64,000 nucleotides of DNA. Source: Phytoseiulus persimilis. Its lineage: Eukaryota > Arthropoda > Arachnida > Mesostigmata > Phytoseiidae. Shown here one piece after another: positions 4,891 through 59,501 of the stretch; the stretch's first letter is position 1, and each line of letters starts with the position of its first letter. The DNA lies in contig CM075103.1 of the NCBI GenBank assembly GCA_037576195.1, positions 38,763,250 through 38,827,249 on the forward strand. The letters run 5' to 3'. The translations under genes were made by a program, and so were the position numbers. Below the pieces are notes generated by a model. It was given only the letters and a program-made list of their open reading frames with translations. It made no database searches and was not told the origin of the DNA.

Positions 4891-4899
4891 TTTTGAGAA

Positions 4900-24350: not shown

Positions 24351-24410
24351 GCAGAGGTCGTCAAACTTTTCCGACATCGACACCCCAGGGTGTCGAGGGG
24401 TGTCGCAGCC
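24351..24410. mobile_element. Possible hAT-type terminal fragment
   Basis: The satellite is broken by CAGAGGTCGTCAAACTTTTC followed by CGACACCCCAGG. This resembles the terminal inverted repeat of hAT/Charlie-like transposons (CAG-G-GGTTC-CAAACTTT...). Only one end is present; no matching inverted end was found nearby. It may be a relic or a solo end from a nonautonomous copy. Confidence 0.35.
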
Positions 24411-30281: not shown

Positions 30282-30938
30282 TTTACTGTCCAACTCTGGG
30301 GGGTGATTCCGAGGCCAATCTTAGCATTACTTTCCAACTCTGGAAGGGTGATTCCGAGGCCGATCTGAGCATTACTTTCCAACTCTGGAAGGGTGATTCG
30401 GAGGCCAATCTGAGCATTACTTTCGAAGTCTGGAGGGGTGATTCCGAGACCAATCTGAGCATTACTTTCGAAGTCTGGAGGGTGATTCCGAGATCAGTCT
30501 GAGCATTACTTCCCAACTCTGGAGGGGTGATTCCGAGGCCAATCTGAGCATTACTTTCGAAGTCTGGAGGGGTGATTCCGAGACCTATCTGACCATTACT
30601 GTCCAACTCTGGAGGGGTGATTCCGAGATCAATCTGACCATTACTGTCCAACTCTCAAGGGGTGATTCCGAGGCCAATCTGACCATTACTTTCGAAGTCT
30701 GGAGGGGTGATTCCGAGATCAATCTGAGCATTACTTTCCAACTCTGGAAGGGTGATTCCGAGGCCAATCTGAGCATTACTTTCGAAGTCTGGAGGGGTGA
30801 TTCCGAGATCAATCTGAGCATTACTTTCGAAGTCTGAAGGGGTGATTCCGAGATCAATCTGAGCATTACTTTCCAACTCTGGAAGGGTGATTCCGAGGCC
30901 AATCTGACCATTACTTTCGAAGTCTGGAGGGGTGATTC
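30282..30938. repeat. 45-bp minisatellite, segment 2b
   Basis: About fourteen units, same orientation as segment 2a. It is interrupted at 30938 by the Copia element B insertion; the last bases GATTC are one copy of the B target duplication. Confidence 0.93.
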
Positions 30939-31171
30939 TGTTGGGAGTTCACAGATTCGTTCCACCAAGTAAATACAACGGATACCGTATCGGTTACTGT
31001 CTCGGTGTTTATTCTGTCCGAATGGTTGCCTTATATAGTCCTGATGTACTGAAGTGGCAAGGGTGAAGTCGGTCGACTTCACCCGTACCTACGCATGTCG
31101 TGAGGCCTCTGATGTGGCCTCATCCAAACCTGAACAGGGACGCGTGCTGAGGGAATCCTAATTTCTCAACA
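30939..31171 (-). repeat. Copia B 3' LTR
   Basis: 233 bp, matching 46932-47164 with one difference noticed (GTCC versus ATCC after TTATATA). In element orientation it starts TGTTGAGAAA and ends CCCAACA. A TATA box (TTATATAAGG) and AATAAA lie in the second half. A perfect 11-bp inverted repeat with a 2-bp spacer (31061-31084) lies upstream of the TATA box. Confidence 0.95.
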
Positions 31172-32418: not shown

Positions 32419-32553
32419 CAGTAAGTCCACATATTACGCAATATCTTGAGATGAGGTCCCGCATTGAAGTGCTCATGAGACATTCACGTTGATTTAGAGA
32501 TGAGACGCGTCGGACATATCGTTTCTTAACCTCCACTGTATTCCTTCGGACAG

Positions 32554-32798
32554 TACCGCCGGAACCATTGATTCGGATCTGCCAGTTCATTCAGGGGAAC
32601 GATCCGCACATTTACGGCGAGTTCCTCGTGGAGCATCAAGCGCTTATTCATCAGTTGGCTCTGGACGAGGTCCCAATTGTTATTCATCGGTACGCGGATC
32701 TACATCTGATTTTGCCGGGTCATCCCTGGTGTCACACCCGCAACAGATTCTGTTGTCTGGTGGCGACCCTTCGCTACCCCAAGGGTCATTGGGAGTAG
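32554..32798 (+). CDS. Putative antisense gene of Copia B, continuation exon
   Basis: Continues the frame of 31682-32418 after the predicted 135-bp intron (32419-32553), ending at a stop at 32798. It encodes about 80 residues with a compact, folded-looking composition (QFIQGNDPHIYGEFLVEHQA). A faint match in spacing to the second exon of the first antisense gene of element A (G-x-F-L-x-E...) can be seen but is not convincing. The same DNA is read in another frame as the N-terminal part of the membrane-protein exon. Confidence 0.3.
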
Positions 32799-32914
32799 AT
32801 CATCTCGAGGACGTGGAGTTGTTCATAAATCCGTACGCTCCGAGTGCTCCACCTCTTTCACTGTGTGACAGTTTTCCTTCGACTGATTTTTCGGAGTCCA
32901 GGCGCGAAACCGTC

Positions 32915-33479
32915 ATGAAGTGGTGCGTTGCCAGCCTTCTGCTGTTCCTTCTTCTTCTTTTTTCACTGGCCTTGCTTCGAGCCAGTCTCGGTGAGTTGAC
33001 TTCCGTGGGCTCATTCGTCCTGTCCGTTATTCGACTTTTGTATCAATGTATTGGCAATTTTATCCATCAATTTAACAGACAAATCGACGGGTAAAGAGCC
33101 GCGTCTCATGCAGACGACACCTCCCCCGGATCACTCAACCGTAACCAGAGGAACCACAGTGGAGAAACCACAGGTCCCCACTACAGAGGGGACACAGGTT
33201 CTACCTACGTTCTGGCCGACCTCCGCAGTCCCGCTGGTGGATTTTCACCAGAGACGAATCTTTAAATTTTCGGACTTGAACTGTCGAATGGCCACGAAGG
33301 TCGTCATCTGTTCGTCACAGTTAGGACGCTCGTGCTTGATTCGACAGCCAAGCCAGGACCAGGGAATTAGCACACTCGTTGCCCATCCCGCCTTCACGTA
33401 CACAGTGCATCTTTTGGTCGGGAAGTATCACGATCAATGCGGGTGTGAAACTTTCGACTGGTATCTAACATTTCAGTAG
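32915..33479 (+). CDS. Antisense mucin-like glycoprotein of Copia B (spliced)
   Basis: Exons 32915-32990 and 33079-33479, intron 32991-33078 (88 bp; CTCG|GTGAGT donor, TTTAACAG acceptor, phase 1); 158 residues. Residues 1-25 are a strongly hydrophobic segment that could be a signal peptide or a signal-anchor; the frame is also open upstream to 32554 with a Ser-rich sequence. Residues ~38-75 are a Thr/Pro-rich stalk. The C-terminal module has Cys 94, 103 and 111, spacing C-x8-C-x7-C, identical to element A. An AATAAA lies at 33577. ATG 32915 is the first AUG after the candidate promoter once the intron at 32419-32553 is removed. It is transcribed opposite to gag-pol and converges on the env-like ORF. 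Confidence 0.65.
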
Positions 33480-33719: not shown

Positions 33720-34208
33720 CTAGTTCTCTAGGACATCTTGTACTGTCTCTCTGTAGGGGTTGTTCGGATCAGGGCTTGGAATTCGGTCATACCCTCTGTT
33801 CTTGATGTGTAGTATGATCCTTCGTATACAGTAGGATATTAATATTATTAACGTCAGTCCACATTGAAACATACTTGAAATTTTCCAAGTTAGGCACAAG
33901 CCTTCAGGCAAAGGCTGTGGTCCTGGTTCCGGTGGCGATGGTCTGTGTTTCTTGAATATCTTCCATGCTTCCAAACCCGCCACCGTTGGTCTGTCCTCAT
34001 TCACGCACGCTGCCATATCGCTGGCATGCCTTTCGCATTCGTACTCCGACTCCATGCATTCGTAATTGAAGCTGTCCTGTCCACCAAGCTCTATCAAACA
34101 GCTGTGGTGATTCTTTCGACACTCACCCGGGCAGCTGCCATAGTCAAAGTATTCACTCGAGAGACCGATAGCCATAGCTATCGTTGTGAGGAATAGTTGC
34201 CCTTTCAT
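33720..34208 (-). CDS. Env-like type I membrane protein of Copia B
   Basis: 162 residues from ATG 34208, overlapping the last 56 bases of pol in another frame. Layout: signal peptide 1-18, small ectodomain with Cys 26, 30, 37, 51, 58 and 68, a Pro-rich stalk (88-102), a transmembrane segment near 112-134, then a short tail with YDRI and NPYRET. The cysteine spacing C-x3-C-x6-C-x13-C-x6-C-x9-C is exactly that of the element A protein. Its position after pol, its topology and a likely spliced mRNA suggest an envelope-like surface protein, but it is much smaller than retroviral Env and shows no fusion peptide or furin site that I can see. Function is inferred only. Confidence 0.75.
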   Translation of the reverse strand: MKGQLFLTTIAMAIGLSSEYFDYGSCPGECRKNHHSCLIELGGQDSFNYECMESEYECERHASDMAACVNEDRPTVAGLEAWKIFKKHRPSPPEPGPQPLPEGLCLTWKISSMFQCGLTLIILISYCIRRIILHIKNRGYDRIPSPDPNNPYRETVQDVLEN

Positions 34209-35207: not shown

Positions 35208-35212
35208 GAGAT

Positions 35213-35589
35213 TGTTGAGTACTTGGTGTTTTACCCAGAGCAGTCGTCGGCACAGTTTTGGTAATCAGGGAAGACGCCATTCGAGCAAGCGGAGCGGTAG
35301 TGAACTTTGAGCATGATCAACCGCGCACAGGCGATACTGTAGATTACTGAGATAGAAATCGGACGCCTGTAGACTGACGTCTAACGTCAGTGTTCGCCGT
35401 GTAACTCTCCCCTGTCAGTGACTATAAAAGCCGGAATAAAACTTCAGTGTGTTGGGGGAGCCAAACATTCTGTCCACCAGAATTGTCGTTTTCATTCAGT
35501 AGCCGTCATCTCTAGGCAAGTCTTGTACGCGTCACCGATAATCTCATCCAGCCGCAAAGGAGCTAGAGCCAGGCCCAAAAGGCTCATCA
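35213..35589 (+). repeat. Copia A 5' LTR
   Basis: 377 bp from TGTTGAG to CTCATCA. A TATA box (CTATAAAAG, from 35422) is followed by AATAAA (35435-35440) and a TCAGTG initiator-like site. Upstream at 35374-35390 is a perfect inverted repeat of the CRE half-site (CTGACGT-CTA-ACGTCAG), suggesting control by CREB/ATF-type factors. It differs from the 3' LTR at one position noticed near 35541. Confidence 0.96.
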
Positions 35590-35605
35590 GCGTTATCAGC
35601 ACGAC
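35590..35605 (+). promoter_or_regulatory. Primer-binding-site motif, Copia A
   Basis: CGTTATCAGCACGA directly after the 5' LTR. The identical 14 bases follow the 5' LTR of element B (46931-46918), although the elements otherwise differ, so this is very likely where minus-strand DNA synthesis is primed. I could not assign the tRNA. Confidence 0.65.
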
Positions 35606-35677: not shown

Positions 35678-38600
35678 ATGTCAAGACAGCAATCCGCCAG
35701 AGATGCCCAAGGCCCCCACGGCTTCGTTCACTACGGACTGAACGGTCTCGAAGTTGATCCAGAACCCAGCTCCAGCACATCCGGAGATCCCATCGTGTGT
35801 GGACCAAGACAACGAGTCGCAACCAACATCATCCTAGCACTCGACGGCAAGAACTACATACCATGGCGCACAGTCATGCCATCCGTACTAGATGGAGAAC
35901 CGTATGCCTGGCCTGTAACCATCGGGAAACTCAACCCACCAGCTCCAGATCAAGAAAACACACCAGAGGGCAAAACGCAAATGAAGAACTACACCATCGG
36001 AAACAGAGCTGCGAGGTACGTGCTTATCAACTCGATACACCCGAATCTCGCCACATCATTATTCCTCGACAACGCAGATAATATAGCAGCACAGGAGATA
36101 TGGCGCCGAATCAAGAACAAGTTCACGCGCGCAACAGGCACAAGGGAGGGCCTAGCATTGTCGAAGTTCATGACGTTCGAGTACCAACCAGGACTATCCG
36201 TTGGCGATAACCTCCTCGCTTACAAGAAAGTCATCTTCGAGCTCAACACAGTTGGAATCAACTTACCAGACGATGTCCAGTGCTCCAAACTTCTAGAGGC
36301 GCTGCCAAGTTCATGGGAACCGTTCCGACAGGGATGGAGCACCCGACTGGACTCGGACAAACATCTGGACACACTGACGGATCTAATCGAAGGAGAAGCC
36401 ACTCGAAGGAACCAAAGTGACGTCAACGAGATCACAGCGATGTTCTCCCGATTCAACCCCTCAAGGAATCAACACTTCAGGAGAAGAAACTTCGCCAGAA
36501 GATCCAACTACCGAAGAACATCTGTGCAGTCATCCGAAGTGATATGCTACAACTGCAATCAACGAGGACACATGCAATCAGCCTGCAGACTTCCCCGACA
36601 AGGCGGGAATCAACGCAGAGGCGGGTTTCGAGGCAGAGGAAGAGGCAGAGGACAATCGAGAACACTACCGCCGCAAGCCAACATTGCTGAAGCCCTGACC
36701 GTGGAATGCCAGCAAGCCGAAATCAATCAAGCAAGTGCTGAAGAGATATTTGCTGTTGACAGCGGCTCGACCCACCACATGCTAACCAGCCTGAAATGGA
36801 TGACGGACTACAAACCGTTCGAAGACAACCAAGTGGTCGCACTCGGCGGATCCAATACCCTAAGTGCACAGGGGTCAGGAACCGCAATTGTGCCAGTGAA
36901 CAACGACAACAAGACCGCAACGCTATGTCTAAAGGACGCTCTGTACGTACCCAGGCTTCGCAGAAATCTAATTTCAGTTTCAAAGCTACTAAACGAGAAG
37001 TTTCGTATTTTGGTAACTGAGGAAGCCATCACCATACTCCGAGACAACGAAGAAGTTCGAGCTGAGCAACAAAATGGACTGTTCGTGTTCCATGCAAGTG
37101 AACCAGTGGAGGGAAACGTTGCGGGACTGAAGAAGAAAGTAAGTCTGAAAGCGGTACACGAGATGTTCGCTCACATCAACGTTAAGACCCTCAGGAAAAT
37201 GCTGAACCGCGAAGGATACGAGATAATCAATGACTTCGTGAAATGTGACGTATGTACCCAAGGCAAGATGCATCGTTCGAGCAACAGGCCGAAACCCGGG
37301 AAAGTGGTAGCTCCAAGACCAGGGTACATACACGCGGACACCTGCGCAATGCGTAAGAGATCTCTTGGAGGAGCAAATCTGTTTCTCACGCTGACTGACG
37401 ACATGACTCGGTTTCGAAAAGTGTGCTTCTTAAAATCGAAGGATCAAGTGCCTGACCACATCGCGGAATTCGTCAAATGGTTCCAGAATCAAAGCGGTTT
37501 CACTGTGTATCATCTCCATTCTGATGAAGGAACTGAGTTCAAGAATCAGAGAGTGAAGGAGATCATGAGTGCCATCGGAGCTGATGTAAGTTACTCCCCT
37601 CCTTTTACGCCTCAACTTAACGGTATAAGTGAGCGTTTAAATCGATCGTTACTTGACCTGGCAAGGACCATGCTCATCGACAGTGGCCTTCCCAAGTACC
37701 TTTGGGCGGAAGCCGTGAGCTTTTCCGCCCACACGACGAATTGCGTAAAGTTTGTCGAATCAGCCGGGAAGACGCCGTACGAGATGATCATGAGGAGAAA
37801 ACCATACATCAGTCTCATCAGAGCATTTGGCACCGAGTGCAAGTTTTACAACCGCACCCCGCAGAAGGACAAGTTGGACACCAGAGGATTCCCAGGCTAC
37901 ATTGTCGGGATCGATGAAGATGGACTCAGCTATCGTGTGTGGTATCCCGAGACCAGACAGATCGTCAGGACAAAGGACGTGAAAGTGAGCACTCCCAGTC
38001 CACTGGATGGAGGAGTCACCTCAGAGAATGCCGCCGAAGCAGAAGCGCCAGAAGGCAACGGCGAAGAGCAGATCGAAGAAGCCAATCCGTCACCGGATAC
38101 CAGAGAGAACGCATCAGCAAGAGAAGAAGCAGCATCCGCGGGCCCCGTGCCGGAAAGAGAATCCTCGAATGAAGGACATGGCGCCGCAGGAGCGGCTGCC
38201 CCAAGTGAAAAACGCAACGAACGGCGCGGGAGATACGAGCTACGAGATCGATCCAAGTTGCGTCCTCCGGAGAGGTACCAGGCCGGCAGCGCACACGTTG
38301 CGATGTGTGACAGCGAAACAGTGAGCACCGGTGTAAATAATTTGGTTGACGAACCAACATGTTTAGAAGATGTTCACAAGTCCAATTACAGCCAACAGTG
38401 GCTTAGTGCAATGGCAGAGGAGATGGCGTCGCTCGATTTCCACAAGGTTTGGGAGCTCACCGAACTTCCAAAAGGCAAACGCACGGTTGGGAATCGATGG
38501 ATCTTCAAAGCAAAGAAAGACGCCCTAGGTAACATCGAGAGGTTCCGTGCAAGATGGGTCATTCAAGGATTCAGCCAACGTCCAGGTATAGATTTCACAG

Positions 38601-39909
38601 AGCTCTACTCGCCTGTAGCTAGGTTCGATACCATCAAAACAATTCTATCAATAGCTGCCAGGGAGAAATTGAAGCTATACCAATTCGACGTTAAGACAGC
38701 ATTTCTGCACTCGGAACTACCGGAAGAAATCTACACGAACCAACCTAAAGCGTCGAGGATGGAACGAATCGAGTCTGCAAACTCTTGAAGGCGGTCTACG
38801 GGCTTCGTCAGGCATCAAGGGCTTGGAACCTGAAGATCGACCAGGTTCTGACAGGACTTGGACTCACACAGAGCCAAGCTGATCCTTGCGTGTACTTCAC
38901 AATTGGCCCAAAACGAATTTTGGTAGCCTTGTACGTTGACGATGGATTGACAGCGGGATCAGACCAAAAGGTCGTGCAGGAGTTTCTCGGGAACCTCGGT
39001 AAGGAATTCGAAATCACTTCCAGGAAGTTAGAGTTCTTTCTCGGTCTACATGTCGAATCATCAGATGACAACTCCGTCATTCGTGTCCATCAATCAAAGT
39101 ATATCCAAGAACTGCTAGACAGATTCCAGATGTCGAAATGCAAGGAAACAGCAGTCCCAATGGACAACAGCTACAAGTCGAATCCCAGTGACGAAATCGA
39201 GCCAGAACTGCCGTATCGTTCAATTGTTGGTGGTTTGATGTACCTCACGATTGCGACGCGTTTTGACGTCGGTTACGTGGTAGGATACCTGTCAAGGTTC
39301 CTGGATCGTCCCACCAGACGTCTTTGGGATCTCGCATTGAAAGTGCTGCGCTACCTCCAAGGTACCAAGACTTTCGGTCTCCGGTACACGGGGAGCGGTC
39401 CAGAGCTGCTCGAGTGTTTCAGCGATGCAGATTTCGCTGGCGACGAGCAAACGAGACGGAGGACCACTGGATCATTGATTCGGTTCGGAGGTGGAGTCAT
39501 TTCTTGGGCGAGCAACCGCCAAGCGTCCGTGACGCTCTCTTCAATGGAGGCGGAGCTTGTGGCCCTCTCTGAGACACTCAAGACCGCGATTTGGACAGCG
39601 CGCTTACTCGCAGAGCTTGGACATCCAGTCGTACCAAAGTTGCTCGTTGACAACCAGTCGACGATCGCTCTTGCTGAGAATCCTTCTTTCCACAAGCGCT
39701 CAAAGCACATCGAGGTGAGACATTTCTACTGTCGAGAGAAACTACAGCGCGGAGAAGTCACAATCCACTATTGCCCGACAGCACAGAACGTTGCTGATAT
39801 TCTGACGAAGTGCCTGCCTAGAGAAACGTTCCAAAGACTTAGATCACTTGCAGATGGAAACCGTCAAGATGATGATCGCGTTCATCATGGTTTGCGTGAT
39901 GGCCAGTAG
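35678..39909 (+). pseudogene. pol: Copia A gag-pol, one frameshift in RT
   Basis: Frame 1 runs 35678-38788 (1036 codons) and frame 2 carries on to 39909. Domains: Gag/UBN2-like capsid (~1-250), one CCHC knuckle at 290-303 (CYNCNQRGHMQSAC), protease DSG at 361-363, GAG-pre-integrase, integrase with HADT, SDEGTEF (Asp 616) and NGISERL as the DDE set, a Ser/Glu-rich linker, RT (NRWIFKAKKD, YLPVAR-type motif) and, in frame 2, LYVDDGLTAG and RNase H (SLSSMEAELVALSE, LVDNQSTIALAE). A single missing base near 38750 shifts the frame just before LKAVYGLRQASRAW. No programmed-frameshift signal is expected there, so it is probably a mutation or an assembly error. Single-ORF gag-pol is normal for Copia. 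Confidence 0.95.
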
Positions 39910-40360
39910 CGCGTTGGGGTACTTCACATACTCCGACTGCGACACTGATTGTCAGAAGATGACCTGGCCATGCACGATTTCCCAAACAAACGAGAACAAC
40001 TTTCCATGCGACTGCGTGGAGCTCGAAGCGAGCTGCCTCAGATTGGCATCAAGAGAAGTTGTATGCCTGATCAAGAATAGGACTGCCATAGGAGGAGAAG
40101 ACGTTTGGATTCCATACTTCAACCATACGCACCCATCGACGCCATCGCCCCCGGTTCCCGATCCTGATCGAACGATTGGATATTGGTTCAAATTCCTGTC
40201 AATGTACTTCGTAGTTACAAACGTGCTCTCGGTACTCGCCGGATTGGTCGTTCTCACGAGATGGATCAGACGAATTCGAGCGCGTTCATACGCTCACTTG
40301 CCTGATCCACCTCTCGAACAGGAGGATGGACCGTACCGACCGACAACCGAAGAGATTTGA
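39854..40360 (+). CDS. Env-like type I membrane protein of Copia A
   Basis: 168 residues from ATG 39854, overlapping the last 56 bases of pol in a different frame. Signal peptide 1-22; ectodomain with Cys 29, 33, 40, 52, 54, 61 and 71; N-glycosylation sites at Asn 75 and Asn 90; Pro-rich stalk (94-105); transmembrane segment ~113-135; basic stop-transfer (RWIRRIRAR); 30-residue tail with YAHL and GPYRPTTEE. CTTGCAG directly precedes the ATG and can act as a splice acceptor. The six shared cysteines and the tail motif match the element B protein. No family outside these two elements is recognised. An envelope-like role is an inference from position and topology. Confidence 0.8.
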   Translation: METVKMMIAFIMVCVMASSALGYFTYSDCDTDCQKMTWPCTISQTNENNFPCDCVELEASCLRLASREVVCLIKNRTAIGGEDVWIPYFNHTHPSTPSPPVPDPDRTIGYWFKFLSMYFVVTNVLSVLAGLVVLTRWIRRIRARSYAHLPDPPLEQEDGPYRPTTEEI

Positions 40361-40398
40361 GATATAACCATTTTTTGTGAATCTCGCTTTTCCCAAAC

Positions 40399-40404
40399 AA
40401 TAAA
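40399..40404 (+). terminator. Internal sense poly(A) signal, Copia A
   Basis: AATAAA 38 bases after the env-like stop. Sense transcripts ending here would exclude the antisense gene region, allowing a dedicated env-like mRNA end. Confidence 0.5.
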
Positions 40405-40443: not shown

Positions 40444-40449
40444 TTTATT
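40444..40449 (-). terminator. Poly(A) signal of antisense gene 2, Copia A
   Basis: AATAAA on the minus strand, six bases after the stop codon of the mucin-like gene. It faces the sense poly(A) signal only ~40 bp away, so the two transcription units converge tightly without overlapping. Confidence 0.75.
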
Positions 40450-40455
40450 CGTTGA

Positions 40456-41713
40456 TCAAGCGGAGAAGATCGAAAATTTGGAACAGAGCCTTTGTATCTC
40501 AGATACATCTTGTCCAAAAGCAGCGAAACTACTTGGATCGTAGTTTCGAGCTGACAAGCGATCTGGTGTCGGAATGTGCAGAGGGATGACGACACAGCGT
40601 CGATCCCTGCGGTAGATGCAGGTTCGCACATACGACAACTGGTAACAATGATATCCACGGATATCCAATTCGAATCGCCTGGGTGGCAAAGTCGATGAAA
40701 TCGAATCGGTGCTCGTTTCCGAAATCGAACTCGAGAGAGTCGATATGGAAGCGGCGTCAGTTGTCGTTGAATGCGCGATTGACTTTGGAGAAGTAAGACG
40801 CCTAGTTGTGGAAGTTGAAGGAAGAGTCCGAGCTGTTGTCGTAAGCGGCAGGTCCGAGGCAACAACACCCTCGGCAGTGGTCAAAGAAGACCGAGTGGTG
40901 GTTGTAGTTGATACCGTGGGAATGGCCGTCGTGAGAAACGACGATGCGACCCGCGAAGAAGGAGTTGATGATGAAATGGATTGAGTCGGCCTGAGATAGG
41001 AACGTCGCCCGGCGGTCGTATGCTCGACATACCAGTGATGAGTCGTCGTTCCGAAAGAACGGGTATTCCTTGGAGTTGTGGAACTCGGAACCCAACGACG
41101 AGTCGTCGTTTGACGACGTTCCTCATGTCTGATAGCGCGAACGGTCGTGGTTGGAAAATACCCTTGAGTCACTTGTTCGGTTAGGGTACGATACTTTGGT
41201 GTTGTTGGAGTCGGTGATGTAGATCTCACAGATTCCGGTATGGTTGAGGTCCTCACGGTCGATGTCGGTTTTGACGTTGCAGTCGTTGTCGGAAGTCCGA
41301 CCGACTGCGGTTTCGTGGCGTTTCGCGGGTGCATGGCCTCGCGAACCATGCGCTCACTCTTCGTGGAAGTGGAGCTTACGAGGAAAACTGTAGGAGAGTA
41401 ACGGAAAATTGGAATGCAGCTCTCACGGAAACGTAATCAAGATATGTCACGACGTCTGAAACATACCCGAGTAGACCAGAATTCCAAGTCCGACCAACAA
41501 CACGGCAATCACAAACAACATGTAGTTCGCCACACCACGGGCCGCGCGCGAGTTCGGAACAAATGATCGAACATTCATCTCGCTACTTTGACGAGAAATG
41601 AAACACTCGTGATCGATCCCTTGGAGTTCCATCGTGGAGAGTACGGATCGAGAGAAAGTAGCTCTAGAGGCGGAAGAAAGGTTGGAAGTGGCACTCGATG
41701 TATCAGTGCTCAT
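40456..41713 (-). CDS. Antisense gene 2 of Copia A: mucin-like type II membrane glycoprotein (spliced)
   Basis: Exon 1 41713-41467, intron 41466-41388 (79 bp; CGG|GTATGT donor, TTACTCTCCTACAG acceptor, phase 1), exon 2 41387-40456; 392 residues. An in-frame stop lies just upstream of ATG 41713. Residues 1-61 are a Ser-rich cytoplasmic tail, 63-86 a hydrophobic anchor (YMLFVIAVLLVGLGILVYS), then ~230 residues dominated by Ser/Thr/Pro, suited to dense O-glycosylation. The C-terminal domain has Cys 330, 339 and 347 (C-x8-C-x7-C) and Cys 384. The element B antisense protein has the same module. Topology resembles viral attachment proteins, but no known family was recognised. Transcribed opposite to gag-pol. 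Confidence 0.75.
41388..41466 (-). other. Intron of antisense gene 2
   Basis: 79 bp with GTATGT at the 5' end and a pyrimidine-rich tract ending in CTACAG. Removing it joins two frames without a stop and links the membrane anchor to the mucin region in phase 1. Confidence 0.75.
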
Positions 41714-41860
41714 CGAGTTATGTCAAGACTCCCACTCCCCTTTCCAATGTTTTCAAACATGCTCCAAAAGGGACACTTGAATCCAGGACGCCAGGGAGAT
41801 CCAAACCGAATTCATTGAGAAGAAGACTCAACGGGTAACTCATTGGTTATAACAATATGG

Positions 41861-41866
41861 TTTATT
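41861..41866 (-). terminator. Poly(A) signal overlapping stop codon, antisense gene 1
   Basis: AATAAA on the minus strand. The stop codon TAA of antisense gene 1 (41864-41862) is embedded in the signal itself, an economy typical of viral genomes. Confidence 0.75.
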
Positions 41867-42394
41867 CAAAACAAAGATATATGGTGAGGTCCCCACAAAG
41901 TTCCACAAAAATTTGGAGGCCTCTCACTGGCCTGCTACATGTGGCGATCGGTGGAACTGGGTTCTCCACTCGCAACAGGAGACATCTCCGTGTCTCCCGC
42001 GATAGGCAGACCCAGTGGTGACTGAGCCGTTCACATAAGAATCGGCCCAGGTCAACCTGCTCGCGCAGGATCTCCTCGAGTTGGACGAGGGGTGGTAAAC
42101 CACTCGGCTCTGGTAAACAAACAAAAGGAAATCACTATCGGAATAGATCTAACAACGACGACACAAAAAAAAAGGGTATATGATAACAGGAAGCCCACAT
42201 GCGAACTTTGCACCAAATCACTCACCGAGGAATAGCCGGATGATGTGAATCATCCCCATCACCGTGGCAGATACCAAGAGCGACGTGCCGGGACGCTCTC
42301 TCACACGCCGGAGGAGGTTTTCCACCCATCGCAAGATGATCAGTCGTTCAATCGCGGTGGGTGTGACGGCGACTTGGAAGTTGCGTTCGGACAT
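41862..42394 (-). CDS. Antisense gene 1 of Copia A: small membrane protein (spliced)
   Basis: Exon 1 42394-42226, intron 42225-42110 (116 bp; CTCG|GTGAGT donor, TTTTGTTTGTTTACCAG acceptor, phase 1), exon 2 42109-41862; 138 residues in total (417 coding bases including stop). ATG 42394 is the first after the predicted start site; an upstream ATG at 42463 lies above it. Residues ~1-36 are basic (NLLRRVRERP), ~37-56 hydrophobic (LLVSATVMGMIHIIRLFL), followed by an acidic helix and a Cys-containing C-terminal part. If the splice is not made, the product ends two codons later at 58 residues. A TATA box lies upstream. No known family recognised. Confidence 0.7.
42110..42225 (-). other. Intron of antisense gene 1
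   Basis: 116 bp, GTGAGT...TTTACCAG with an excellent pyrimidine tract. Splicing joins Leu-56 to an 82-codon frame that ends precisely inside the AATAAA signal, which is strong internal support for the prediction. Confidence 0.78.
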
Positions 42395-42442
42395 GGTGAA
42401 GTTCGAAAAAATTCGAGCAGTCTCGTGGCAAGCCGAACGAGA

Positions 42443-42474
42443 CAATTGAGTGCTCGAGAGCAACCCCTTTTATA
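42443..42474 (-). promoter_or_regulatory. Antisense promoter of Copia A (TATA box and initiator)
   Basis: On the minus strand TATAAAAGGGG (42474-42464) is followed by a TCAATT initiator-like site with its A at 42447, about 27 bases downstream. The predicted 5' UTR of antisense gene 1 is ~50 bases. It is separate from the LTR promoter. Confidence 0.65.
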
Positions 42475-42769
42475 CGATTTTGGCGAGAGTTTGCCTCAAG
42501 ATACGGTCGTATGTCACTTCAATCGAAAGCAAATTTCGCGACAAAGATGTCTAGACAGACATCAGCTTGAGGTTTCTCTATAGAATTCGAACCATTGAAC
42601 TGATAAAGTATCTAGTGAAGTCTCTACACATTGCATGTTCGATAGATGCTTCCGCTGAAGAGATCTGTAATCGCGGAATCGCGCATCCGAGTAATGTCAC
42701 ATGCAATGTTCCCCACATCAGAAGGTTCCGGCTATGATCTGCGAGCGACTGTTCTGTGTAGGAGGGAGC
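42475..42769. other. Noncoding 3' region and polypurine tract of Copia A
   Basis: About 295 bp upstream of the antisense promoter, with no credible ORF. It ends in the purine tract AGGAGGGAGC directly before the 3' LTR. Confidence 0.6.
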
Positions 42770-43146
42770 TGTTGAGTACTTGGTGTTTTACCCAGAGCAG
42801 TCGTCGGCACAGTTTTGGTAATCAGGGAAGACGCCATTCGAGCAAGCGGAGCGGTAGTGAACTTTGAGCATGATCAACCGCGCACAGGCGATACTGTAGA
42901 TTACTGAGATAGAAATCGGACGCCTGTAGACTGACGTCTAACGTCAGTGTTCGCCGTGTAACTCTCCCCTGTCAGTGACTATAAAAGCCGGAATAAAACT
43001 TCAGTGTGTTGGGGGAGCCAAACATTCTGTCCACCAGAATTGTCGTTTTCATTCAGTAGCCGTCATCTCTAGGCAAGTCTTGTACGCGTCACCGATCATC
43101 TCATCCAGCCGCAAAGGAGCTAGAGCCAGGCCCAAAAGGCTCATCA
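42770..43146 (+). repeat. Copia A 3' LTR
   Basis: 377 bp, matching the 5' LTR with one difference noticed (GATCATC versus GATAATC). CRE-like inverted repeat at 42931-42947. Followed by the target duplication GAGAT (43147-43151). Confidence 0.96.
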
Positions 43147-46100
43147 GAGATAGACCCATATGAGTGAGAACCTTTTTAAGTGTCTGATTAAACAGAAACG
43201 GTGATTGTTTCAAACCGTAGAGCGCTTTCTTGAGAAGAAGGGTTTTGAATCCTGCATATTTATAGCCTTTTGGCATCTCCATATAGATGGACTCTTCAAG
43301 CGGAGCGTATAGGAATGCGCTCGCTATGTCGCACTGATGGCATAGGAGCTTCTCTTCAGCTGCAATACTGAGCATTAGTTTGAGTGACTCGGCTCTGGCT
43401 ACCGGTGCGAACAAGTTGTCAACCGAGTAGTCCAAATTCGGAACCTGACTGAATCCTCTAATCACCAGTCGTGCCTTGTACCGTTTTGTTTTAGTTTGCG
43501 GATCAGTCTTTACGCGAAAAATCCACCTGGATGTTATAGCTTTCCTTCCCGCTGGAAGCACTGTTGGTTTCCATACCTCAAGTTCTTCCATTTTTCGTAG
43601 TTCCTGAGCGATTGCTATTTTCCAGTGTTCTCGGTCATTACATGTGATTGCTTCTTCATAAGTCACGGGTTCATTGTGTTCGTTTGGAGTATTAGCGTTT
43701 CTCCTTTGATGACTGTCTTTATTTTGAACAGATGAATAATAGGCTTGAGCAAGACTCTGTGAGTCAGAATGGGAGGCCCCATGTTCACTTTCAACCAATG
43801 TGGCGCAGGCACCAACCCCGAATTCCGCAGACTCAAGATGGGTTCGATCTCTTGAGCGATCACAAGTCACTGCTGCCCCTGTCGCTCCTCCCGAGCATTC
43901 GCGAGAGGCGTCGGTCGAGAGGCTCCCGTCGGTCTGCTTCAACATAAGAAGCTGAGACTCTGCCTCTTCTGCCCCATGCTCCAAGCCGGTGGCCTGAGTC
44001 TCCTGATGGTTAATCTCACTTCGTGGCTTAGTCTGTTTCCTTTTAGTGAAGCGTATTCCCTTCCTCTTTCTGCGCTTCTTTGGTCGATCTGCGCGTTTTA
44101 CTTGAGAATCTTCCGTAGTTATCTGAGGTTCTCGAGGCCCAAGTGACAGCGGCTGGCTGATTGGTGGGTCGAAAGAAGAAGTGTTCTCAACTTCAAGAGG
44201 TGCCTCATTTCTTTCTGGTAGACTTGTTTCTTTGGGTGGATGTTTCAAGAAAACGACGTCTTTTGTCTTTACCACCTCACGTGTTCTAGGTAAAAATACA
44301 CGATAGCCTGAGCCATAGTCAGTGTTTCCAGTCATGAATCCTCTCTCGCCTCGCTTGTCTATCTTGTTTTTATGATAGATGAAGACTGAGCAATCAGCTC
44401 CAAACCTATGAAGTTTTCCGAAGAACGGTTTTCTACCGTGAATAATTTCAAAGGCGGATTTGTCAAGATCCCTGTTGATCAAGACCAGATTCAGCATATC
44501 CGCTGAATAATTCAGAGCTTCCGCCCAAAGGAATCGGGGTAGCTTTGTGCTCAACAGAAGTGCTCTAGTATAGTTCAGTAACGTTCTGTGGGATCTTTCC
44601 GCAATCCCATTTTGTTGAGCCGTGTATATGTTCGAGAAGGTCTGCACTATCCCCTTTCTGTCGAAAATCTCTTTGAGACTCCGGTTCATGAATTCTGTCC
44701 CCTGATCAGACATGAATCGCTTTATCTTCTTTCCAGTTTGAGTCTCAAACCACGCGATGTAGTGGGAAATACAATCCACTGTCGCGGCTTTCGTTTTTAG
44801 CATGTATATCTTGCGATATCGACTGAATTCCTCAGTGAGCACAAGAAAATATCGTGCCCCACCGAGAGACTCCACCGAGGTCGAACACAAATCTCCAGAG
44901 ATGGTTCCCAACTCGGTCGCTCTGCCCACGTCTGGACGGCTATGATACGAACTTCGTATTTGTTTGGCCTGAACACATTCTAGGCATTGTTCAAAATCAT
45001 CCTTGTAGAGGATGCCCTCGAGGTTGAGCAGTCTCTTCAGTGCTGCCTTGTTGATATGAGCGAAGAGCTCATGCACCGCTCTCAAGCTCACTGGTTGATG
45101 CGTAGTCCAGTTTCCCGGATCCAGGGGTTGATCAGACCCCGACGCTGCTCGAGAGACAACCGTCACCGTTTCCGGTCGGGACTCGATCGAGTTGTCAACC
45201 GCTGTTACCTCGTCATTTTCTTCCTCATTATTCTCTGTGATTCCAGAGATTTCATCAATCTCTCTTGGTGTTGCTGGATCGATTTCTTCGACGTCATCCA
45301 GCATATCATAGTCGTCTGAGTCATCTGAACGTTCTTCCACTGCTAGCACTTGACCGGTATTTCGTTGCTTACATCTGCTAGCTTTGAGCTTGTACAAACC
45401 ATTCGCTTCAGGTGCGCGAATTCTATTATCTCCTTTGCAGAGTATCATTTCCTTTTTACTTGCGCATATCTTGTAGCCATTTTCAATCAGCTTGCTCACA
45501 CTCAAGAGATTCTTTCTCATCCGGGGCACGTACAGTACGTTTTCAAGTATCAGTGTGACTTGCTGGTTGTCTTCTCCGACAGTTAAGGGAACGGTACCAT
45601 GGCCCTGAACCCGCAGTTTGTGGCAGCTTCCAACCTTAACTTTCCGGATGTCGGAGTGCCTGTCCAATTCACTGAACCAATGACTGTTATTCATTACGTG
45701 GTGGGTCGACCCGCTATCAATTAAAAGATAGCCAGATTCGGATGGATTGTTACTGCTGTAACCTCTTGCTTCGAAGACTTCTGGGAGACTTGACTTCGAG
45801 CGCCTTCCGGTTTCGACCGGTCTACGCGAGTCAGTCACTTCCACCATTGTGAGAGCTTCTGCTACATTGAACTGAGGTCTTCTGCCTCCAAAGTTCCTTC
45901 TGGGATCCCTTCCTCTAGTACCTCCAGGCGGGCCTCTTGGACCATTGCTGTCGGAGCTGCGACAGTCCTTCATCAGGTGACCGGGCTTATTACACTTGTA
46001 GCATGTCAGCATGGACCTTGGGTTTCCTCTATGCGGCTGCCGCTGGAACCGGTTTCCTCTGTGAAACCGACCGCGACCTCTGCCACGATAGGGTCTGCCG

Positions 46101-46931: not shown

Positions 46932-47164
46932 TGTTGGGAGTTCACAGATTCGTTCCACCAAGTAAATACAACGGATACCGTATCGGTTACTGTCTCGGTG
47001 TTTATTCTGTCCGAATGGTTGCCTTATATAATCCTGATGTACTGAAGTGGCAAGGGTGAAGTCGGTCGACTTCACCCGTACCTACGCATGTCGTGAGGCC
47101 TCTGATGTGGCCTCATCCAAACCTGAACAGGGACGCGTGCTGAGGGAATCCTAATTTCTCAACA
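46932..47164 (-). repeat. Copia B 5' LTR
   Basis: 233 bp, same features as the 3' LTR, with the 24-bp palindromic element at 47054-47077. Followed on the plus strand by the target duplication GATTC. Confidence 0.95.
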
Positions 47165-47765
47165 GATTCCGAGGCCAATCTGACCATTACTGTCCAACTC
47201 TGGGGGGGTGATTCCGAGGCCAATCTGAGCATTACTGTCCAACTCTGGAAGGGTGATTCCGAGGCCAATCTGAGCATTACTTTCGAAGTCTGGAGGGGTG
47301 ATTCCGAGACCAATCTGAGCATTACTTTCGGAGTCTGGAGGGGTGATTCCGAGACCAATCTGAGCATTACTTTCCAACTCTGGAAGGGTGATTCCGAGGC
47401 CAATCTGACCATTACTTTCGAAGTCTGGAGGGGTGATTCCGAGGCCAATCTGACCATCACTGTCCAACTCTGGGGGGGTGATTCCGAGGCCAATCTGAGC
47501 ATTACTTTCCAACTCTGGAAGGGTGATTCCGAGGCCAATCTGAGCATTACTTTCGAAGTCTGGAGGGGTGATTCCGAGACCAATCTGACCATTACTTTCC
47601 AACCCTGGAGGGCTGATTCCGAGACCAATCTGAGCATTACTTTCGAAGTCTGGAGGGGTGATTCCGAGACCAATCTGACCATTACTGTCCAACTCTGGAG
47701 GGGTGATTCCGAGACCAATCTGAGCATTACTTTCGAAGTCTGGAGGGGTGATTCCGAGATCAATC
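47165..47765. repeat. 45-bp minisatellite, segment 2c
   Basis: About thirteen units continuing segment 2b after the B insertion. The last unit decays at CAATCTAACTCTACGG into the sequence flanking the BEL/Pao remnant. Confidence 0.92.
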
Positions 47766-47885
47766 TAACTCTACGGATTTTTATTACTTTTGAAATTCGT
47801 TCCATGTCTTGTCTCTTCCTACGAAGTTATAGCATAGCACTGTCGCGATAGAGAGCCCGAAGTAACGAATGAGATCCTGTCACTG

Positions 47886-48648: not shown

Positions 48649-49107
48649 TGTTAACAACTGTGCCAATGCAACCAGTCGAATTGGAAATTCCGTTGGTCGT
48701 CAGGCCGGGCAGAGTTCAGACAGAGCCCGCCAGAGGGCGGCTGCTGCCGATTCCAAGTTTAGGCAGAGCTGCGGCGTCTAGGACAGACTTCCAAAGCTAG
48801 GTAGCGGTGCTTCAAATGTCTTCGAGTTCCATTCGGAATACGAATCAAGCGAACGAGATCAATGAAGGAAGGGACCGGAGCGAAGCCTCGAACCGGAAGC
48901 TGATGCCATGAAGTCGTCTGCATGGCGGCACGAGGAGTAAACAGTACATGTATTCAGTTGCAACTCGGCTCTCAATCCGGATGGACGAGAGTCGCAAGTG
49001 TTAGGCGTGCAAAGTTCTGAAAAATCAGTTTCGGCGTTCTGGGGCGGCTGCGGCCCGTATGCCAACATTTCGTGCTTTACTTAATTCCCTGGGCTGGATT
49101 TTTGACA
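48649..49107 (+). repeat. Candidate BEL/Pao 3' LTR
   Basis: Begins TGTTAACAACTG right after a purine tract (GGCGGGAG) and could end at TTTTTGACA, where minisatellite 3 starts. There is no second copy in the window to confirm the ends and no clear TATA or AATAAA. The rest of 48552-48648 shows nothing further. Confidence 0.35.
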
Positions 49108-49129
49108 GGAATCATCCCCCCAGTTTCGG

Positions 49130-52100
49130 AAAATCATGGTCAGATTGATCTCGGAATCACCCCTCCAGACTTAGAAAGTAATGGTCAGATTGGCCTCGGA
49201 ATCACTCCTCCATAGTTGGACAGTAATGGTCAGATTGGTCTCGGAATCACCCCTCCAGACTTCGAAAGTAATGGTCAGATTGGCCTCGGAATCACTCCTC
49301 CAGAGTTGGACAGTAATGGTCAGATTGATCTCGGAATCACCCCTCCAGACTTAGAAAGTAATGGTCAGATTGGCCTCGGAATCACTCCTCCATAGTTGGA
49401 CAGTAATGGTCAGATTGGTCTCGGAATCACCCCTCCAGACTTCGAAAGTAATGGTCAGATTGGCCTCGGAATCACTCCTCCAGAGTTGGACAGTAATGGT
49501 CAGATTGATCTCGGAATCACCCCTCCAGACTTCGAAAGTAATGCTCAGATTGGCCTCGGAATCACTCCTCCAGAGTTGGACAGTAATGGTCAGATTGGTC
49601 TCGGAATCACCCCTCCAGACTTCGAAAGTAATGGTCAGATTGGCCTCGGAATCACTCCTCCAGAGTTGGAAAGTAATGGTCAGATTGGCCTCGGAATCAC
49701 CCCTCCAGACTTCGAAAGTAATGGTCAGATTGGCCTCGGAATCACTCCTCCAGAGTTGGACAGTAATGGTCAGATTGGTCTCGGAATCACCCCTCCAGAC
49801 TTCGAAAGTAATGGTCAGATTGGCCTCGGAATCACTCCTCCAGACTTCGAAAGTAATGGTCAGATTGGCCTCGGAATCACCCCTCCAGACTTCGAAAGTA
49901 ATGCTCAGATTGGCCTCGGAATCACTCCTCCAGAGTGGGACAGTAATGGTCAGATTGGTCTCGGAATCACCCCTCCAGACTTCGAAAGTAATTGTCAGAT
50001 TGGCCTCGGAATCACCCCTCCAGACTTCGAAAGTAATGGTCAGATTGGCCTCGGAATCACTCCTCCAGAGTTGGACAGTAATGGTCAGATTGATCTCGGA
50101 ATCACCCCTCCAGACTTCGGAAGTAATGCTCAGATTGGCCTCGGAATCACCCCTCCAGACTTCGAAAGTAATGGTCAGATTGGCCTCGGAATCACCCCTC
50201 CAGACTTCGAAAGTAATGGTCAGATTGGCCTCGGAATCACTCCTCCAGAGTTGGACAGTAATGGTCAGATTGATCTCGGAATCACCCCTCCAGACTTCGA
50301 AAGTAATGGTCAGATTGGCCTCGGAATCACTCCTCCAGAGTTGGACAGTAATGGTCAGATTGGTCTCGGAATCACCCCTCCAGACTTCGAAAGTAATGGT
50401 CAGATTGGCCTCGGAATCACTCCTCCAGAGTTGGACAGTAATGGTCAGATTGATCTCGGAATCACCCCTCCAGACTTCGAAAGTAATGCTCAGATTGGCC
50501 TCGGAATCACTCCTCCAGAGTTGGACAGTAATGGTCAGATTGATCTCGGAATCACCCCTCCAGACTTCGAAAGTAATGCTCAGATTGGCCTCGGAATCAC
50601 TCCTCCAGAGTTGGACAGTAATGGTCAGATTGGTCTCGAAATCACCCCTCCAGACTTCGAAAGTAATGGTCAGATTGGCCTCGGAATCACTCCTCCAGAG
50701 TTGGACAGTAATGGTCAGATTGGTCTCGGAATCACCCCTCCAGACTTCGAAAGTAATGCTCAGATTGGCCTCGGAATCACCCCTCAAGAGTTGGAAAGTA
50801 ATGGTCAGATTGGTCTCGGAATCACTCCTCCAGACTTCGAAAGTAATGGTCAGATTGGCCTCGGAATCACCCCTCCAGAGTTGGAAAGTAATGGTCAGAT
50901 TGGTCTCGGAATCACCCCTCCAGACTTCGAAAGTAATGCTCAGATTGGCCTCGGAATCACTCCTCCAGAGTTGGACAGTAATGGTCAGATTGGTCTCGGA
51001 ATCACCCCTCCAGACTTCGAAAGTAATGGTCAGATTGGCCTCGGAATCACTCCTCCAGACTTCGAAAGTAATGGTCAGATTGGCCTCGGAATCACCCCTC
51101 CAGACTTCGAAAGTAATGCTCAGATTGGCCTCGGAATCACTCCTCCAGAGTGGGACAGTAATGGTCAGATTGGTCTCGGAATCACCCCTCCAGACTTCGA
51201 AAGTAATTGTCAGATTGGCCTCGGAATCACCCCTCCAGACTTCGAAAGTAATGGTCAGATTGGCCTCGGAATCACTCCTCCAGAGTTGGACAGTAATGGT
51301 CAGATTGATCTCGGAATCACCCCTCCAGACTTCGGAAGTAATGCTCAGATTGGCCTCGGAATCACCCCTCCAGACTTCGAAAGTAATGGTCAGATTGGCC
51401 TCGGAATCACCCCTCCAGACTTCGAAAGTAATGGTCAGATTGGCCTCGGAATCACTCCTCCAGAGTTGGACAGTAATGGTCAGATTGATCTCGGAATCAC
51501 CCCTCCAGACTTCGAAAGTAATGGTCAGATTGGCCTCGGAATCACTCCTCCAGAGTTGGACAGTAATGGTCAGATTGGTCTCGGAATCACCCCTCCAGAC
51601 TTCGAAAGTAATGGTCAGATTGGCCTCGGAATCACTCCTCCAGAGTTGGACAGTAATGGTCAGATTGATCTCGGAATCACCCCTCCAGACTTCGAAAGTA
51701 ATGCTCAGATTGGCCTCGGAATCACTCCTCCAGAGTTGGACAGTAATGGTCAGATTGATCTCGGAATCACCCCTCCAGACTTCGAAAGTAATGCTCAGAT
51801 TGGCCTCGGAATCACTCCTCCAGAGTTGGACAGTAATGGTCAGATTGGTCTCGAAATCACCCCTCCAGACTTCGAAAGTAATGGTCAGATTGGCCTCGGA
51901 ATCACTCCTCCAGAGTTGGACAGTAATGGTCAGATTGGTCTCGGAATCACCCCTCCAGACTTCGAAAGTAATGCTCAGATTGGCCTCGGAATCACCCCTC
52001 AAGAGTTGGAAAGTAATGGTCAGATTGGTCTCGGAATCACTCCTCCAGACTTCGAAAGTAATGGTCAGATTGGCCTCGGAATCACCCCTCCAGAGTTGGA

Positions 52101-52186
52101 AAGTAATGGTCAGATTGGTCTCGGAATCACCCCTCCAGACTTCGAAAGTAATGCTCAGATTGGTCTCGGAATCACTCCTCCAGACC
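49130..52186. repeat. 45-bp minisatellite array 3
   Basis: About 67 units alternating between two subtypes, one with CAGACTTCGAAAGTAATGGT and one with CAGAGTTGGACAGTAATGGT. A private variant (AGTAATTGTCAG) occurs at 49981 and 51196, 1215 bp apart (27 units), and the surrounding blocks match, so the array was enlarged by duplicating a 27-unit segment. Frames of more than 940 codons run through it on both strands and are not genes. It ends at CTCCAGACCGG, where truncated Ty3 sequence begins. Confidence 0.97.
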
Positions 52187-57400: not shown

Positions 57401-59501
57401 TAGTCTTGGGCTAATGTATGCTTCTGAAATTTAGTCTTAGCTTTGAGCTAAGATATGCTTGTGGAATTTAGTCTTAAGCTAAGGTATGCTTCTGAAAATT
57501 CGCCTTAAGCTAAGGCATGCTCCTGAAATTTAGTCTTAGCTTTGAGCTAATGTATGCTTGTGGAATTCAGTCTTAGCGTTGAGCTAATGTATGCTTGTGG
57601 AATTTAGTCTTAAGCTAATGTATGCTTCTGAAATTTAGTCTTAGCTTTGAGCTAAGATATGCTTGTGGAATTCAGTCTTAGCGTTGAGCTAATGTATGCT
57701 TGTGGAATTTAGTCTTAAGCTAATGTATGCTTCTGAAATTTAGTCTTAGCTTTGAGCTAATGTATGCTTGTGGAATTTAGTCTTAAGCTAATGTATGCTT
57801 CTGAAATTTAGTCTTAGCTTTGAGCTAAGATATGCTCGTGGAATTCAGTCTTAGCGTTGAGCTAATGTATGCTTGTGGAATTCAGTCTTAAGCTAATGTA
57901 TGCTTCTGAAATTTAGTCTTAGCTTTGAGCTAATGTATGCTTGTGGAATTCAGTCTTAGCGTTGAGCTAATGTATGCTTGTGGAATTTAGTCTTAAGCTA
58001 ATGTATGCTCCTGAAATTTAGTCTTAGCTTTGAGCTAATGTATGCTTCTGAAATTTAGTCTTAGCGTTGAGCTAATGTATGCTTGTGGAATTTAGTCTTA
58101 AGCTAATGTATGCTTCTGAAATTTAGTCTTAGCTTTGAGCTAAGATATGCTTGTGGAATTTAGTCTTAAGCTAAGGCATGCTTCTGAAATTTAGTCTTAG
58201 CGTTGAGCTAATGTATGCTTGTGGAATTCAGTCTTGGGCTAAGGCATGCTTCTGAAAATTCGCCTTAGGCTAAGGCATGCTTCTGAAAATTCGCCTTAGG
58301 CTAGGGCATACTTCTGAAAATCCGCCTTAGCCTTGAGCTAAGGTTGGCTGTTTTTGAAATTCAGTGTTAGCGTTGAGCTAATGTATGCTTGTGGAATTTA
58401 GTCTTAAGCTAAGGCATGCTTCTGAAAATTCGCCTTAGGCTAAGGCATGCTTCTGAAAATTCGCCTTAGGCTAAGACTTGCTTCTGAAATTTAGTCTTAG
58501 CCTTGAGCTAATGTATGCTCGTGGAATTCAGTCTTAGCGTTGAGCTAATGTATGCTTGTGGAATTTAGTCTTAAGCTAAGGCATGCTTCTGAAAATTCGC
58601 CTTAGCTTTGAGCTAATGTATGCTTGTGGAATTTAGTCTTAAGCTAAGGCATGCTTCTGAAATTTAGTCTTAGCGTTGAGCTAATGTATGCTTGTGGAAT
58701 TCAGTCTTAGGCTAAGGCTTGCTTCTGAAATTTAGTCTCAGGCTAAGGCTTGCTTCTGAAATTCAGCCTTAGCTTTGAGCTAATGTATGCTTGTGGAATT
58801 TAGTCTTAAGCTAAGGCATGCTTCTGAAAATTCGCCTTAGGCTGAGGCTTGCTTCTGAAATTTAGTCTTAGCTTTGAGCTAATGTATGCTTGTGGAATTT
58901 AGTCTTGGGCTAAGGCATGCTTCTGAAAATCCGCCTTAGCCTTGAGCTGATGTATGCTTGTGGAATTTAGTCTTAAGCTAAGGCATGCTTGTGGAATTTA
59001 GTCTTAAGCTAAGGCATGCTTGTGGAATTTAGTCTTAAGCTAAGGCATGCTTCTGAAAATTCGCCTTAGGCTAGGGCATGCGTCTGAAAATTAGCCTTAG
59101 CCTTGAGCTAAGGTTGGCTGTTTTTGAAATTCAGTCTTAGCGTTGAGCTAATGTATGTTTGTGGAATTTAGCTTTGAGCTAATGTATGCTTGTGGACTTC
59201 AGCTTTGAGCTAATGTATGCTTGTGGAATTTAGTCTTAAGCTAAGGCTTGCATCTGAAATTCAGTCTTAGCTTTGAGCTAATGTATGCTTGTGGAATTCA
59301 GTCTTGGGCTAAGGCATGCTTCTGAAAATTCGCCTTAGCCTTGAGCTAATGTATGCTTCTGAAATTTAGTCTTAGCCTTGAGCTAATGTATGCTTGTGGA
59401 ATTTGGTCTTAGCCTTAAGCTAATGTATGCTTCTGAAATTTAGTCTTAGCGTTGAGCTAAGGCATGCTTCTGAAATTTAGTCTTAGCGTTGAGCTAATGT
59501 A
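54425..59501. repeat. 31/37-bp satellite, ~5.1 kb
   Basis: Same family as 12356-24350, but with more TTAAGCTAA units and a recurring 'GGTTGGCTGTTTTTGAAATT' variant. CTTCTGAGAATTCGCC followed by TTAGGCTTGAGCTAAGG appears at 54661 and 55997, suggesting a higher-order period near 1336 bp. The left ~500 bp are repeated at 63491-64000 as part of the 9066-bp duplication. No gene in it. Confidence 0.95.

Follow-up and report, generated by a model that had tools for sequence, protein, structure and literature searches.

ASP, the antisense protein of HIV-1, is the product of an unspliced gene that overlaps env, and the plant Sireviruses carry a sense env-like open reading frame (ORF) with a transmembrane segment (TM) after pol. 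As described in the sections of the sources cited here, ASP is a membrane protein of the cell surface and the viral envelope with two TM domains, and HBZ of HTLV-1 is an antisense gene with a spliced form (PMC10186651). Plant Ty3 elements (Grande with gene23, RIRE2, and Retand with TRP28) have antisense ORFs that lie between pol and the 3' long terminal repeat (LTR) across families, with their own promoter in Grande (PMC7264820, PMC11963269). Bdelloid rotifer elements carry a sense env-like ORF3 with a TM after pol (PMC5408684), and the sORF2 of the Drosophila mdg1-group is a small FAST-like TM protein of an LTR element that serves cell-to-cell passage, with an N-out/C-in topology, an ectodomain of about 30 residues and no splicing seen (PMC11952523). 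Here we analyze a stretch of 64,000 nucleotides (nt) from Phytoseiulus persimilis (assembly GCA_037576195.1, contig CM075103.1, positions 38,763,250 to 38,827,249, forward strand), referred to as the window, which contains a Copia element, element A, whose 3' part codes on both strands. Read 5' to 3', this part consists of pol and a sense env-like ORF with its AATAAA signal, followed by two minus-strand genes, G2 and then G1, that face this ORF. The genome searched amounts to 181 Mb (G000, with the window on contig C3). With 112 matches to PF00379, a cuticle domain of arthropods, compared to none in 14 control genomes, it is very probably that of an arthropod. W denotes the window copy of element A, and L009-L043 the 35 loci of its family elsewhere in the genome.

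Two antisense genes facing a sense env-like ORF

G1 is composed of exon 1 (42226-42394, minus strand), coding for a basic N-terminus and a TM, a phase 1 intron of 116 nt (42110-42225) with a GTGAGT donor and a TTTACCAG acceptor, and exon 2 (41862-42109), coding for a Cys-rich head and ending in a TAA stop that lies within GAATAAA. The product has 138 amino acids (aa). Its presumed promoter is a TATA box, TATAAAAG at 42467-42474 on the minus strand, found as CGTATAAAAGGGG in 11 of 11 copies examined and located inside element A about 300 bp from the LTR rather than within it. G2 has a similar organization on the same strand, with exon 1 (41467-41713) coding for the N-terminus and most of a TM, a phase 1 intron of 79 nt (41388-41466) with a GTATGT donor and a CCTACAG acceptor, and exon 2 (40456-41387) coding for the end of the TM, a Ser/Thr-rich stalk and a Cys-rich C-terminal head, which together give a product of 392 aa. 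An AATAAA follows six bases past the G2 stop (40444-40449, minus strand), and no obvious TATA box for G2 itself was seen by eye. Promoter use, splicing and polyadenylation of both genes are predicted. A preliminary description of this locus had placed the exons, splice sites, TATA box and AATAAA signals at positions that all proved right, and both splices preserve the frame, as it stated.

The env-like ORF and G2 were aligned across 25 sequences, comprising the window and 24 of the 35 loci, with the other 11 omitted for indels that break the region. The G2 intron retains GT...AG in 24 of the 25 sequences, with the stretch being absent in the remaining one, and an antisense AATAAA is present in 22. 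The antisense frames exceed chance expectation. When 40444-42474 was simulated 1000 times with a first-order Markov model, an open frame of 326 codons was reached once. Exon 2 of G2 has 60 genome matches (window included); 19 of them extend over 308-309 of its 309 residues, and all of these except one (18 of 19) are free of stops. G2 is intact in 13 of the aligned sequences, and these exhibit a mean ratio of nonsynonymous to synonymous rates (dN/dS, NG86 method) of 0.48 over the whole gene and 0.26 over the last 84 codons. Among 216 G2 variants 89 are synonymous, compared to 66 under random placement, and none is a stop, compared to 6.0 (P=0.0005). Exon 2 shows its selection signal in the antisense frame that was predicted (P=0.004). 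One of the sense frames gives a weaker signal (P=0.01), which we take as a mirror image since third positions are shared. The head is under strong constraint (28 synonymous variants versus 16.2 expected) and the stalk under weak constraint (P=0.045). Together with the results for G1 given below, this purifying selection on the antisense frames indicates that G1 and G2 are real genes.

The sense env-like ORF (39854-40363, plus strand) codes for a signal-peptide-like hydrophobic start, a Cys-rich ectodomain with two sequons in the protein, a TM and a tail. By hydropathy, and with five families aligned, it shows the retroviral-envelope layout of signal peptide, ectodomain and TM. It has at least 152 genome matches at E<=0.001. 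In tests that exclude L035, the env-like ORF has a mean dN/dS of 0.25 (NG86, 12 sequences), with 18 synonymous variants against 12.4 expected (P=0.05) and four stop variants. Past the ORF lies a sense AATAAA (40399-40404, plus strand) that is present in 24 of the 25 aligned sequences. This signal and the antisense one at 40444-40449 face each other 40 bp apart, and the sense signal would terminate genomic RNA ahead of the 3' LTR absent readthrough. The env-like tails of five families (39854-40363, 33723-34208, L044, L049 and L050) end in a PYxxT-like motif that perhaps contacts Gag.

Predicted products and the G1 cassette

Hydropathy gives each antisense product one TM. In G1 it directly precedes the intron, and in G2 it covers residues 68-86 and spans the splice. 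All 21 of the 21 G1 models, and to a slight degree G2, are more positively charged on the N side of the TM than on the C side. The heads are therefore predicted to be outside, in a topology that derives from hydropathy and charge, simple sequence measures rather than a trained predictor. The C-terminal part of G1 is about 80 aa long, and in G2 Ser+Thr make up 42.5% of residues 83-308, which also contain a single N-glycosylation sequon. Both proteins have a head with the pattern C-x8-C-x7-C. A profile comparison of the two heads (hhalign) gave 89.5% over 62 columns, a score that was reached by 0 of 200 column shuffles and by 0 of 200 shuffles with cysteine columns kept. This indicates that the G1 and G2 heads are paralogous, as judged from their profiles. 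Homology of the G1 head with env was also considered and was rejected at 0.2% in the profile comparison. Pfam returned nothing for G1 and nothing above cut-off for G2 or env, with no bZIP for either antisense gene; TRP28 (PF04195) did not appear for either of them even when matches with E up to 1 were included. Profiles of the G1 head and of env, searched against PDB sequences, produced no hit under E=0.4, and a search of 5.8 billion proteins by shared 5-residue words gave no homologue for G1 (0 of 41 candidates) or env (0 of 49).

Gene models of a single plan were obtained for G1 in 21 of 29 segments (the eight without are L035, L037, L040, L041, L031, L039, L043 and L010b). This plan consists of a basic N-terminus, a TM, a GTRAG[TC] donor directly after it, an intron of 85-132 nt and a Cys-rich head, with the stop lying within GAATAA in 17 of the 21 models. 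Note that the model search required phase 1 and the donor motif; placement of the donor after the TM was not required.

When G1 is compared with the element backbones, leaving out L023 and L024 with their frameshifted G1, backbones that are at least 92% identical are found to carry G1 genes with an identity as low as 33% (L015-L020). For example, W and L020 share 99.3% of their backbone and 44% of G1 (the L020 G1 being truncated), and L012 and L029 share 97.5% and 48%, respectively. The converse is also observed, as L009 and L029 have identical G1 genes on backbones that are 95.3% identical, and L015 and L038 have 77% identity in G1 on backbones with 77.7%. In 60-base windows, pairs with differing G1 types exhibit a sharp drop in identity at ~41760 and a recovery at ~42440. 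On either side most windows exceed 87% (one W-L020 window has 73%), and pairs with the same type pass through this interval without a drop. The hypervariable cassette (41760-42440, minus strand) thus corresponds approximately to the G1 transcription unit.

Between G1 types, synonymous sites are saturated in many pairs and the amino acids are held. Specifically, among 14 hand-chosen pairs, exon 2 of L013-L038 has a dN of 0.011 with a dS of 1.36, dN/dS going down to 0.01, and the whole G1 of W-L017 has a dN of 0.051 with a dS of 0.456. Exon 1 is less constrained, with dN/dS values of 1.17 and 1.43 in two close pairs that have few changes and 0.68-0.77 in three distant pairs. Together with the backbone comparison, this indicates that the G1 types long predate the backbones carrying them, which would require recombination between elements plus something that retains old types. 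Frequency-dependent selection, for example, could account for this retention.

Related genes in other Copia families and the setting of element A

Related antisense genes are present in four other Copia families, one of which is that of element B, the second Copia element of the window. The C-x8-C-x7-C pattern is found in antisense ORFs of L044, L045, L046 (a G2 fragment), L049, L050 and element B, and the paralogues are about 30-45% identical across families with the same place and strand. Two further matches to the pattern (L044 at 6201 and L048 at 1780) appear chance-like. A phase 1 donor at the membrane span, here with the phase not imposed, also occurs in L050, L044, L045 and element B, and the best acceptor gives an intron of 78 nt in L050 and 86 nt in both L044 and L045. 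In element B the antisense gene is represented by an exon 1 open frame (32504-33094, plus strand) with a TM followed by a phase 1 GTGAGT donor, and by an exon 2 open frame (33000-33479, plus strand) with the C-x8-C-x7-C head, for which the search gave no clear acceptor. The exon 2 frame has eight genome matches, six of which are full length, 97-100% identical and stop-free. Element B also has a sense env-like ORF (33723-34208, minus strand).

The place and strand of these genes were typed relative to the nearest env or reverse transcriptase (RT) match, using lists of env and RT positions that are incomplete. Of 36 typed G1 matches, 31 are antisense to and downstream of env/RT, none is on the same strand and five lack such a neighbor. 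The corresponding numbers are 19, two and 21 for 42 L050-type matches; six, none and one for seven B-type matches; 45, none and 28 for 73 L049-type matches; and 35, none and five for the first 40 of 60 G2 matches. Pooled, 136 of 138 assignable typed matches are antisense to and downstream of env/RT, where the matches are pieces that overlap in elements and G1 and G2 of one element are counted apart. The typed subsets cover 36 of 39 G1, 42 of 44 L050-type, 7 of 8 B-type and 73 of 73 L049-type matches besides the G2 subset, second pieces of one place being omitted. The L049-type and G2 matches touch at least 72 distinct env places.

Both antisense genes are found in element A and in the L044 family. 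In L049 the one antisense gene seen is G2-like, with a gag open frame ~200 bp away, and in L050 the one seen is G1-like and is accompanied by a long sense ORF. This sense ORF (L050:796-1779) is located between env and the antisense gene and codes for 328 aa, many of them charged, with a coiled-coil-like appearance by eye. The G1-like gene at L044:62-1782 codes for ~400 cytosolic residues ahead of its membrane span, versus ~40 in element A. As to L049:1-1767, where the gag frame comes ~200 bp after the antisense gene, these are perhaps head-to-tail elements with a common short LTR.

Element A itself has a 5' LTR (35213-35590) and a 3' LTR (42770-43147), both on the plus strand and 378 bp in length, that are 99.7% identical with one differing site, which indicates a young insertion. 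It is flanked by the target-site duplication GAGAT, read directly from the flanks at 35208-35212 and 43148-43152, and a polypurine-tract-like AGGAGGGAG (42760-42768, plus strand) precedes the 3' LTR by eye. The gag-pol region (35678-39909, plus strand) is frameshifted near 38749-38788 in the window copy and open over 1424 aa in some other copies. Its Pfam matches are Retrotran_gag_2, zf-CCHC, RVT_2 and rve (the latter below its own cut-off). Element A thus has the LTRs, the target duplication, the Copia-type gag and the integrase before RVT_2 of a Copia element (Pseudoviridae), and at the level of the RT its assignment is by RVT_2 matches. Among the best 120 of 673 proteins from an RT protein search no close relative was named, the top identity being 57-61% to ENA contigs.

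Element A is nested inside element B, which is on the minus strand and has LTRs of 233 bp at 30939-31171 and 46932-47164. Element B is in turn inserted into a 45-nt minisatellite (30283-30938, 47165-47769, 49018-52184 and 4893-8727) that has long stretches open in frame, and the same repeat replaces the first part of G1 in L037. A large tandem-repeat array of another kind occupies 12356-24351 and 54425-59501, with copies that are ~80% alike at many offsets. There are also inverted and direct copies of ~3 kb with 98.1% and 99.7% identity (8817-12039/26924-30171 and 52181-54934/61246-64000).

Readings of the antisense genes and comparison with known systems

The preliminary description had proposed antisense accessory proteins, coded by the element, with membrane products, a view that gains support from selection and from the four other Copia families. 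One of the results it had named as refuting was decay of the ORFs in other copies. This did not occur, as many copies retain both the frames and the splice sites under selection. It had also argued that the introns survive retrotransposition. Introns would persist because only sense genomic RNA, in which they are not introns, is reverse-transcribed, and it is consistent with this that 0 of 21 G1 models and 0 of 24 G2 introns, counted in segments with a model, are intronless.

Our preferred reading, to which we give somewhat better than even chances, is that G1 and G2 together with the env-like protein make up an envelope-like module of surface proteins, encoded by the two strands of the element, in which G1 sets the type or specificity. 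The host would transcribe and splice G1 and G2 from the integrated copy, and the products, in type II orientation and in the case of G2 with a mucin-like stalk, would reach the surface of the cell or particle, where along with the env-like protein they could aid particle attachment or cell entry. In retroviruses env defines interference groups. G1 may act in the same way as a type determinant, giving rare types an advantage and thereby preserving many types. A larger proposal, which we put forward tentatively, is that this is an envelope-bearing, both-strand Copia lineage that has acted as an infectious arthropod virus, with three surface proteins (two of them spliced antisense products) and interference groups formed through an exchangeable G1 cassette under frequency-dependent selection.

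Several observations weigh against a surface module. Sequence and profile searches linked neither env nor G1 nor the heads to any known fusogen or surface protein of a virus, exon 1 of G2 alone shows no significant constraint (P=0.38), and in G2 the two sides of the TM differ little in charge (2 versus 1). G1 is most variable in exon 1, that is in its predicted cytosolic part and TM and not in the head, and is therefore a poor fit to an outside specificity determinant. Furthermore, of the 13 sequences that retain G2 intact, seven have an intact and six a broken env-like ORF, and the three genes are therefore not retained as a unit in every copy, and some families have one antisense gene rather than two. 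These last three observations also favor a reading in which the antisense genes are real and have no envelope function, their products being membrane-anchored accessory factors that exclude like elements or counter host defence, with the diversity of G1 mirroring that conflict. We regard this as a possible explanation, short of even odds; the Cys-rich heads and the mucin-like stalk point outward, and the env-like ORF adjoins the genes in 80 of 80 assignable L049-type and G2 matches.

Capture of host genes, carried with their introns as passengers by a few elements, is improbable. The introns and the TATA box do resemble those of a cellular gene, and typed matches with no env/RT nearby (27 of 85 for G1, L050- and B-type, and 33 of 113 for L049-type and G2) might include some host genes, but these need not be host genes since the env and RT lists are incomplete. 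Paralogues of such divergence in several Copia families at a constant place and strand, and long-lasting purifying selection within the element family, also argue against capture. The convergent AATAAA signals, retained in most copies, would suit antisense transcripts that act as RNA, with the open frames being secondary, and antisense RNAs with regulatory or small-RNA-precursor roles are described in the cited part of PMC7264820. This is very unlikely given the codon-level selection in the antisense frame and the conservation of the proteins between types despite saturated synonymous sites. Chance open frames with chance splice-like sites are scarcely credible. GT and AG are common, and phase 1 and the donor motif were imposed in the G1 model search, but stop-free copies, retained splice sites, selection, the simulations and a consistent place and strand speak against chance, and we rejected it on the conservation across many copies and families.

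New relative to the preliminary description are the exchanged hypervariable G1 cassette, the paralogy of G1 and G2, and the facing sense env-like ORF. In the open literature, searched by titles and abstract openings with subscription papers mostly outside this scope, we found no earlier description of Copia elements that have spliced antisense genes for membrane proteins; the single features each have a precedent, and we found none for the combination. Antisense genes of LTR elements (HBZ, ASP and the plant ORFs) have mostly been argued singly before, and here the case is made from sequence, through codon-level selection, several families and a phase 1 intron that recurs where the protein spans the membrane. 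Coding on the strand that is never used as genomic RNA would also be a route by which a retroelement retains introns. With paralogous membrane heads and a hypervariable cassette that is exchanged, Copia elements would become candidates for passage from cell to cell or from host to host, and the findings hint that these elements are more virus-like than expected.

Among the described systems, the position and TM of the env-like ORF resemble those of rotifer ORF3 and the Sireviruses, where antisense partner genes are not among the features described in the portions of the sources used here. Unlike sORF2, G1 and G2 are antisense and predicted to be spliced, with a predicted N-in/C-out topology and a Cys-rich head. 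They resemble the plant Ty3 ORFs in being antisense between pol and the 3' LTR; the plant elements are Ty3 with nuclear or DNA-binding products, and the word intron is absent from the consulted text of PMC7264820 and PMC11963269. Unlike ASP, G1 and G2 are each predicted to have one TM and to be spliced, and the env-like ORF (end at 40363) and G2 (end at 40456) do not overlap. Finally, HBZ and related genes have a promoter in the 3' LTR and code for a nuclear bZIP protein, whereas the G1 and G2 products are predicted membrane proteins and the conserved TATA box at 42474, the presumed G1 promoter, is located inside element A.
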